A program made the translations under genes and the position numbers. A DNA stretch of 64,000 nucleotides from Gemmatimonadota bacterium. GTDB taxonomy: Bacteria > Gemmatimonadota > Gemmatimonadetes > Longimicrobiales > Gaopeijiaceae. The stretch spans positions 1 to 64,000 of the forward strand of contig JAPPNN010000021.1 of assembly GCA_028873815.1 (NCBI GenBank), given 5' to 3'. Below are positions 42,704 through 45,016 of this stretch, piece by piece. The notes beneath the pieces are model-generated. The model was not told the origin of the DNA. It saw only the letters and a program-made list of their open reading frames with translations, and did not search any database. Position 1 is the stretch's first letter. The number at the start of each line of letters is the position of its first letter.

Positions 42704-43163
42704 ACCGCCGCTGACCCCGACCGGACGGGCGCGGCCATCGACAGGATGGGCGCCCATACGAGCATGCTGGTGTCCCGGGATTCGCCGCGGAAACGTGGGG
42801 GTGAGCCGCCAGCCTGCCGGTTCGTCCCTCCGCTGCCCCACCAACACGCCCCTGTCCCATAACGTCGGAACGCAGGCCGATCCCGCTATGGACGGGTTCT
42901 GAAATGGCGACTTCGGCGACGTCCGGGACCACCTGCCGAATGGCCGCCAGGAGCCGCAGGTGGCCCGCTGGCGCGCGAACGACGCTCGGCGACCCTTCGG
43001 CGTCGTCCCGACCCGACGTTTCGCGTCCTGGGGCCGCGCAGAAGGTCGGAAATCCGGGGTTAAATTTCAGGTGCGCGGACGTGGCGGGTCCTTCACCGGC
43101 CTCCGCCGTCACCCGCGCGATTCACATAAGCCGTTGCCGGAACTTCACCTGGAGGATCACGAC
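42704..43163. other. 460-base gap: left end of IR-bounded unit and HNH leader
   Basis: No protein gene seen. From left to right: 42704-42745 is the tail of the previous gene's region. A perfect 12-bp palindrome (ATGGGCGCCCAT) follows at 42746-42757, and the left inverted repeat is at 42772-42799. The rest is leader sequence without a clear ORF, ending in a GGAGGA ribosome site before the HNH gene start at 43164. Confidence 0.6.
42772..42799 (+). repeat. 28-bp inverted repeat, left copy
   Basis: Begins GTCCCGGGATTCGCCGCGG. It is the reverse complement of 44521-44548 at 26 of 28 positions. It lies 68 bases after the caspase-like gene. Confidence 0.75.
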
Positions 43164-44474
43164 ATGAACACCGTCCAACTCGGAGAGCGGATCGCCGAAC
43201 TCGCCGCCCGGATCAACATCGCCACCCACGAGATGCTCACCCTCGTCGCCGAGTTCGACCGCCGCGAGGGGTGGGCCGACGCCTTCGACTCCTGCGCCGA
43301 GTGGCTCGCCTGGAGGACCGGGCGCGCCCTCGCCACCTGCCGCGAGAACGTCCGGGTCGCCCATGCGCTCGAGGACCTACCGAAGACCTCGGTTGAGATG
43401 AAGGCCGGGCGGCTCTCCTACGCCAAGGCTCGGGCCATCACCCGGGTGGCGACGTCCGAGACCGAGGGCGAACTGCTCGACTACGCGCGGCGGGGCTCGG
43501 CCGCGGCGCTGGAGCGGAGAGTGCGGGGGGTGCGGCACCTGTCACGCGACGGCGAGATCGGGGCCGAAGAGGCCCGGCACCGGGCCCGGGCGTTCTCGGT
43601 CTTCATCGACGCCGACGGGACGTACGTGGTGCGGGGTCGGCTCGAGCCCGAGGCCGGGGCCGTACTGATGCGGGCCGTCGAGGCCGCGAGCGACGCGCTG
43701 TACCGGGCCGAGGATGTGGACGCGCGGCCACGGAGCCGCCAGCGCAGGGCCGATGCGATCGGGCTGGTCGCCGAGCGGGCGCTGGCGGCGGGGCTGACCG
43801 ACGCGGAAGCGACGCCGAGCGGCGGCACACGGGCCGAGCGGTACTAGGTGACGGTGCACACGGAGATGGCCACGCTGGAGAAGGACGGCGAGGGGGGCCG
43901 GTCGGAACTCGACGGGGTGCGGGTGAGCGCCGAGACGTCGCGGCGCATGGCGTGCGATGCGTCGCTGGTCTCGATGCTGCACCGGGGGGGCAAGGTCGTC
44001 AGCGTGGGGCGGAAGACGCGGACGATCCCGCCGCACCTGCGCCGGGCGCTCGAGGAGCGGGACCGGGGCTGCCGGTACCCGGGCTGCGCAGGCCGGTTCA
44101 CCGAGGCGCATCATGTCCGGCACTGGGCCGACGGTGGGGAGACGAGTCTGGCCAACACGGTGCTGCTGTGCCGGCGGCATCACCGGCTCGTGCACGAGGG
44201 CCGGGTCCGGATGGCGCTCGACCGGCACGGCCAGGCGGTGTTCTTCGCGAGGGGGGACGGGATGATCGCAAGCGCACCTGCGCTGCCGGAGCCGAAGCTG
44301 CCTCTGCCGCCTGCGCCCCCGCTCGGCCCCGGCGAGATGTACAACGGGGCCGCGCGGGTCGTGGACTCGGCGATCCCGTGGGAGATCGAGGCTGCGGCCA
44401 GGGAAGCGGTCGACGCGGCAGGCAGTGCGGCCGCAGGCGGGGCGGTCGAGGCCGTATCGGCGGGGGACCGATGA
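43164..44474 (+). pseudogene. DUF222/HNH endonuclease (13E12 type), split by in-frame TAG
   Basis: One reading frame, interrupted by TAG at 43845 (codon 228). Codons 1-227 hold the DUF222 part (NTVQLGERIAELAARINIA, then a helical region and RAERY). After the stop, VTVHTEMATLEKDG continues without frameshift into the HNH part: GCRYPGC, then FTEAHHVRHWADGG, then NTVLLCRRHHRLVHEG. Related proteins have a Gln at the stop position, so a CAG to TAG change is the simplest explanation. Together the reading length would be about 436 residues. The GGAGGA ribosome site is intact. Translation from the GTG at 43848 is possible but would lack DUF222. Confidence 0.85.
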
Positions 44475-44520
44475 CTGGCGCGGCGCACCGTTGAGCCGTC
44501 GGCAGCCGGGGGATGGCAGG

Positions 44521-44548
44521 CCCGCGTTTCCGCGGCAAATCCCGGGAC
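44521..44548 (-). repeat. 28-bp inverted repeat, right copy
   Basis: Begins CCCGCGTTTCCGCGGCAAAT. Pairs with 42772-42799 as an inverted repeat at 26 of 28 positions. It lies 46 bases after the HNH reading frame ends and 52 bases before the PIN gene's stop. Confidence 0.75.
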
Positions 44549-44599
44549 GCGGACAAGTCGGGATGGGACAGGCCGAGAGGCGTCGGCGAGTCCGTATGG

Positions 44600-45016
44600 C
44601 TAGGCCCGAATCGAATCCGGGTCGGCGCCTGCGGCCGGACATCCGCGCACCGCCCGGTACTCCACTCCATCGACCCCCTCAAAGTCGGCGTCCTGAGTCC
44701 ACAGGATGGCGTCGTTGGCACGTGCGGTCGCCAGGATGACGCTGCCCGCCATCGGCAATCCCGACTCCACGCTCAGTTCGGCAGCGTCTACGGTCAGGTT
44801 CGCGTCGAGATCCACGACTTGCCCATGCTGCATCTGCGCGACGGCGTAGAGCGCGGCGTCAAGATCCCGCTGGAGTCGGACGCGCTTTAAGACCTCGAAG
44901 AGGGTGATGCTCGGTACGATCAGGCGATCGGTGTCCGCAATGGCGTCGGCAAACTCGCCGGCGTTGGGTCCGTCACCGAAGTACTCCAACCAGGCTGAGG
45001 AGTCGATGACGTTCAT
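44600..45016 (-). CDS. PIN-domain toxin (VapC-like)
   Basis: 138 residues. PIN fold: strand MNVIDSSAWLEYF with first acidic residue Asp5, then VPSITLFEVLKRV with the glutamate, then GLPMAGSVILATARANDAILWTQDADFEGVDGVEY with the remaining acids. Members cut RNA, often tRNA or rRNA, and are held inactive by an antitoxin. The ATG at 45016 overlaps the upstream reading frame's TGA as ATGA, as in normal vapBC pairs. That upstream partner is only a tail (see next entry), so the toxin may be unopposed or already inactive. Antitoxins of other loci could cross-act. Confidence 0.85.
   Translation of the reverse strand: MNVIDSSAWLEYFGDGPNAGEFADAIADTDRLIVPSITLFEVLKRVRLQRDLDAALYAVAQMQHGQVVDLDANLTVDAAELSVESGLPMAGSVILATARANDAILWTQDADFEGVDGVEYRAVRGCPAAGADPDSIRA

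Follow-up and report, generated by a model that had tools for sequence, protein, structure and literature searches.

The window, a 64,000-nucleotide stretch of contig JAPPNN010000021.1 in the draft assembly of a Gemmatimonadota bacterium (GCA_028873815.1; G000), carries a unit of 1,819 bp between outer boxes (42751–44569), in which one DUF222-HNH gene of the 13E12 type is enclosed by inverted terminal arrays. Comparison of copies within and between genomes shows, as far as sequence can, that these ends belong to the unit, that the family is multi-copy, and that its copies evolve in concert within a genome. We tentatively favor the reading that the unit is a dispersed repeat whose nuclease, aimed at the unit's own box arrays, drives conversion between copies; we hold this to be a real possibility, though short of probable. 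A repeated 13E12-type gene is of a known kind; the PMC literature searched, mostly at listing level, yielded no account of the inverted arrays, of a ParB-type domain predicted for this family, or of concerted evolution tested across species. The unit is laid out as follows.

42751–42799, forward strand: left terminal array, with a CGCCCAT box, a GTCCC box 21 bp on, and the CGCCGCGGAAACG core, which is present at all four G000 units.
42849–43163, forward strand: noncoding upstream region conserved among copies, probably a control region.
43164–43847, forward strand: 5′ portion of the DUF222-HNH gene, which includes the predicted ParB/Noc-type domain (fold predicted on an intact homologue from the related genome G001), stopping at an in-frame TAG.
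43848–44474, forward strand: 3′ part in the same frame, which encodes the remainder of DUF222 and the HNH domain; its first codon is GTG.
44521–44569, reverse strand: right terminal array, the inverted copy of the left end by repeat finding and copy comparison, with outermost bases ATGGGAC.

The 28-bp inverted repeats first described in a sequence-only reading of the window proved real: in alignment, 42772–42799 pairs with the inverse of 44521–44548 at 26 of 28 bases (93%), and with a repeat finder the paired length grows to 47 nt, at 77%. A 27-base core pattern, allowing three mismatches or fewer, matches twice in the window and in none of 100 shuffles. Among the copies compared, the 28-bp arms form the core of a conserved inverted end motif of approximately 49 bp, which runs from a (G/C)(T/C)CCCAT box through a GTCCC box 21 bp further in to the TTTGCCGCGG core. 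Also in agreement with that reading, DUF222-HNH is the only gene between the window ends, with no transposase among the contents. No PADLOC match to a defense system was obtained, no Rfam match was returned for the upstream region, and four stretches folded to look for an RNA there gave no signal (z-scores −0.14 to 0.78). Some units in G018 and G001 still have common DNA beyond the outer boxes, so that the true ends may lie further out than the border used here.

A DNA search of G000 recovered four units: the window copy, copies on contigs C10 (94%) and C5 (88%), and a 5′ fragment on C45. The core pattern, at three mismatches or fewer, has 11 matches in this genome; the 10 with at most two mismatches all lie at the four units, and the eleventh, with three, lies away from any DUF222-HNH unit. 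A shorter core pattern returned 13 matches, namely the same 10 and three one-mismatch sites elsewhere. Together with sites in relatives that lack the unit (described below), this supports the earlier suggestion of a discrete element, and one that is repeated. The accompanying check, whether copies of the 28 bases stand beside DUF222-HNH genes, came out positive for 10 of the 11 G000 matches but not at two further DUF222 loci (C69 and C13), which have scattered four-mismatch matches and no clear box array, nor for solo ends in G001 and G021.

Across the genus, the shorter pattern occurs in 22 of 23 genomes, with 1 to 44 matches each against 0–1 for the reversed control, though eight of the 22 have just 1–3 matches, little above that control. 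Matches were sorted one by one in G001 and G021, leaving out G018, G007, G003, and others rich in matches. G001, a single contig, holds nine near-full and two short units, which account for 25 of its 32 matches; three more lie at ends bearing an IS110-family insertion, in one of these the 3′ end of the unit lies across the insertion, and the remaining two probably represent the left end of a different unit, now split. Solo ends account for three, including one situated 2.1 kb from a remnant, and the last match is unclassified. The 16 matches in G021 comprise 10 at units, one near a remnant, four solo, and one unclassified.

Conversion between copies is supported by units at matching sites in different species. 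Four such pairs were found, and in all four the units are closer, where comparable, to copies in their own genome than to their counterpart. In a coding-sequence tree of 27 of the 30 sequences (three partial copies left out), the copies from G001 (nine), G018 (four), G000 (three), and G021 (three) each form one clade. Approximately unbiased (AU) tests, which covered three of the four pairs (G000W–G001d, G018b–G021b, and G001i–G004C56), rejected a site clade in every case. Because units at matching sites group by genome rather than by site, these data argue for concerted evolution. The middle of the G000 unit is identical between the window copy and C10 over approximately 1.1 kb, and between the window copy and C5 over 0.9 kb, with identity in comparison windows outside these stretches falling to 23%, partly through gaps; such middles look like conversion tracts, a reading to be taken with caution since the assembly is a draft. 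Another bin contains a 739-bp stretch at 98.6% beside stretches at 80–90%.

The frame of the window gene is broken by a TAG codon (43845–43847) that the sequence-only reading had not noted. Each of the three long G000 copies has one in-frame TAG at the same alignment position, and intact copies are present in relatives. A GTG codon follows directly in the same frame (43845–43850 for the two codons together), which makes a restart yielding two half proteins possible. Carrying the TAG, the window copy may be only a passive member of the family. Pfam searches of intact homologues returned DUF222 and HNH only, at E values up to 0.01. The HNH region has many positions at which all of 37 homologues carry the same residue, and comparison shows the unit protein to be under purifying selection. 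The N-terminus of DUF222 (residues 16–127) is predicted to adopt a helix-turn-helix (HTH) fold of the ParB/Noc type, as judged from structure prediction on the intact G001 homologue and from weak sequence matches among the matches listed. Though the unit protein resembles ParB, Noc, and KorB in this predicted fold, the HTH match begins at residue 1–20 in the unit protein, as compared with no earlier than residue 106 in ParB/Noc chains; the unit protein thus has no room for an N-terminal CTP-binding domain, and the HTH is followed instead by an HNH domain.

Eighty homologous loci were collected, of which 53 entered an inverted-repeat test and 40 a box scan. The inverted end motif was found at 10 of 18 loci of the genus and at none of 35 others, against a null inflated by within-genus pairs. 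Upstream boxes on the strand of the gene were present in 31 of the 40 loci scanned (800-bp upstream stretches), as compared with none on the opposite strand, none for a reversed pattern, and six of 400 shuffled stretches. An inverted box within 200 bp downstream was seen only in three both-ended loci of the genus. Upstream-only loci include two in the genus (G016 and G022), and the rest belong to more distant relatives, many of them multi-copy; this distribution suggests that the upstream array came first and that the inverted pair was acquired later, and it indicates that inverted ends are unnecessary for multiplicity. For the both-ended genomes in the tree, each of two clades has one type of end on the left and right alike, an argument for a single factor that recognizes both. 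One G015 locus listed under two identifiers is counted once. G017, G013, G003, and G007 are not on the tree and were left out of these counts; their end types are AA in G017 and, for left ends only, CG in the other three.

Under the mechanism that we tentatively favor, the box arrays would be the binding sites of the ParB/Noc-like domain of the unit's own protein, and the HNH domain would break or nick DNA at or near the boxes. Repair of such a break from another copy would homogenize the copies and might re-fill degenerate ones, with new sites perhaps occupied at low frequency. The overall action would resemble that of a homing endonuclease working between scattered copies rather than that of a transposase. 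We infer protein binding, cutting, the link from cutting to conversion, and the occupation of new sites. A broader claim, which we consider somewhat unlikely, is that such units form a class of transposase-free selfish repeat, in which a ParB-type domain aims an HNH nuclease at the element's own boxes and the resulting breaks drive conversion; one clade would have gained paired inverted ends, a step toward a transposon, and the REP13E12 hotspots discussed below would have the same explanation.

A realistic, if rather doubtful, alternative is that of an ordinary multi-copy family that host recombination homogenizes, in which the GTCCC boxes are operators for ParB-like autoregulation and HNH has no role in copying. 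The spread of the TAG allele fits this alternative or action in trans. However, an inverted downstream array is unexpected of an operator, and the many invariant HNH-region residues also tell against this reading. So does a control multi-copy gene of the genus (a tree of its 15 closer matches): none of five multi-copy genomes forms one clade, so that the copies do not group by genome. This control is weak in that its family is more diverged, its sites are unchecked, and some of its copies are nearly identical between genomes. The control gene lies beside the C5 unit (L032 1473–2739 in G000; also L294–L307), has copies with approximately 99% identity across genomes of the genus, and may be a mobile gene in its own right.

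Of the remaining alternatives, two involve transposition, on which the occupied and empty sites bear. The genes that flank the window unit adjoin without it in G010, G006, G016, and G002 (gaps of 23, 24, 27, and 27 bp, respectively), are 217 bp apart with no unit in G004, and are adjacent without a unit in G014, as judged by match coordinates. The same site holds a unit in G001 and, at a contig end, the right part of a unit in G019. The C10 site is occupied in G000, by a shortened unit in G001, and on two G019 contigs, and has no unit in G004. Because occupied sites are common to different species, several insertions are old. No exact junction could be fixed at the window site or at the other sites looked at, where the intergenic DNA is too diverged. 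Across 24 units, with the outer box assumed as the border, the mean target-duplication match was 2.6 as compared with 2.5 for mismatched pairs, and a duplication of at least five bases was seen in one unit as compared with 11% of mismatched pairs; there is thus no excess at the border so assumed. Empty-site alignment, proposed earlier as a way to find exact ends and any target duplication, therefore recovered unit-free neighbors in relatives but neither of these. Spread of a short form was considered and rejected: the deletion points differ among the five short units in G018 (one truncated where its contig stops) and the two in G001, which indicates decay in place.

It is improbable that the unit is a terminal-inverted-repeat transposon on which a transposase coded elsewhere acts in trans, though paired ends of one type per clade, dispersed sites, and unit-free sites in relatives would all suit such an element. 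The lack of excess target duplications at the assumed border tells against it, as do the seven short units, none of which is seen to have spread. Moreover, the sole transposase met at the ends is that of an IS110-family element which has inserted there. This element has five near-identical copies in G001, one truncated (L141 2196–3428; L073 3637–4869, reverse strand; L151; L171; L261), all at the same base of the unit core, which suggests that the unit ends are well-defined DNA. One further G001 end carries the start sequence of the element. According to the portions consulted of two papers (PMC1525189; PMC11187229), repetitive extragenic palindromic (REP) sequences are established targets for insertion sequences, some of them from the IS110 group.

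Similarly improbable is a transposase role for the HNH protein, which would then cut out and insert the unit by way of the inverted ends. The protein is the product of the only gene in the unit, and the ends are conserved and paired; however, relatives with one-sided boxes are multi-copy too, and neither an exact junction nor a recent insertion was found at the sites compared. We know of no HNH-only transposase. As for the earlier suggestion that the unit may be mobilized by its HNH nuclease or in trans, movement to new sites is a matter of inference, and conversion from copy to copy is the better supported process. Finally, a chance repeat or a general intergenic hairpin is very improbable, despite the solo copies in G001 and G021, given that nearly all G000 core matches lie at units and that a hairpin role for the window ends was rejected, these folding no better than shuffled sequence (z 0.08 and −0.08).

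Among known systems, the unit shares terminal inverted repeats with insertion sequences but encodes no transposase. Like HNH-type homing endonucleases, it combines a nuclease gene with gene conversion (proposed for the unit), and the observed concerted evolution is compatible with a homing-endonuclease-like filling of gene-less sites; unlike them, it shows no intron or intein and no single conserved site, carries its own box arrays, and would act between dispersed copies. RAYT/REPIN systems likewise consist of a single gene flanked by inverted short repeats, the gene encoding a Y1 (HUH) transposase; the unit has DUF222-HNH in its place, and solo repeats are few in the genomes classified. The HNH domain also bears some similarity to IscB/OMEGA proteins (NF040563, 20.3 bits with a cut-off of 175; PDB match, E 0.024), though there is no full-length match, and the upstream region gave neither an RNA fold signal nor an Rfam match, as noted above, results that a guide RNA of an undescribed kind could escape.

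Several observations stand apart from these comparisons. A PIN-domain gene (44600–45016, reverse strand; Pfam PIN, E 4.7e-15) directly adjoins the window unit. Immediately beyond three units (L032 5027, L033 1677, and L149 1552) is another short repeat, reading ACGTCAGGGTTA or ACGTTAGGGTTA. DUF222-HNH genes of other lineages (L237, L238, and L239) lie near different palindromes, GTCCCCGCGGGGAC and TGCTCCCCGCGGGGAGC. Relatives of the gene, at approximately 50–60% protein identity, are multi-copy in bins labeled Gammaproteobacteria (L201, L204, L216, L220, and others), reflecting either transfer or mis-binning.

The closest known counterpart is the mycobacterial 13E12/REP13E12 family, compared here at the level of published description. 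It resembles the unit in joining DUF222 and HNH in one protein (in intact homologues; split by the TAG in the window) and in having several copies per genome, as with the four in G000, one a fragment, and the nine near-full copies in G001. The unit differs in being flanked by inverted box arrays and in belonging to another phylum. In the parts consulted of a preprint on 151 Mycobacterium tuberculosis assemblies, 87 conversion events are reported in REP13E12 regions as compared with seven in insertion sequences (133 genes), and these regions are presented as a gene-conversion hotspot with no defined function; REP13E12 genes with conversion number 10 of 14 in its Table 1 and five in its text (PMC13061034). 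REP13E12 is also mentioned there and elsewhere as a prophage attachment site (PMC13061034; PMC2323391, each seen in part). As an analogy from a different phylum, the mycobacterial parallel is not in its own right evidence that the nuclease takes part.

In several groups of bacteria, DUF222-HNH genes occur as repeats. A testable mechanism for the family is offered by three findings together: the predicted ParB-type domain, boxes that form part of the unit, and the concerted evolution seen in comparisons between species. If this mechanism is correct, it would link a nuclease to the reported gene-conversion hotspots, and the genus described here would present a simple element seen in the course of gaining transposon-like ends.
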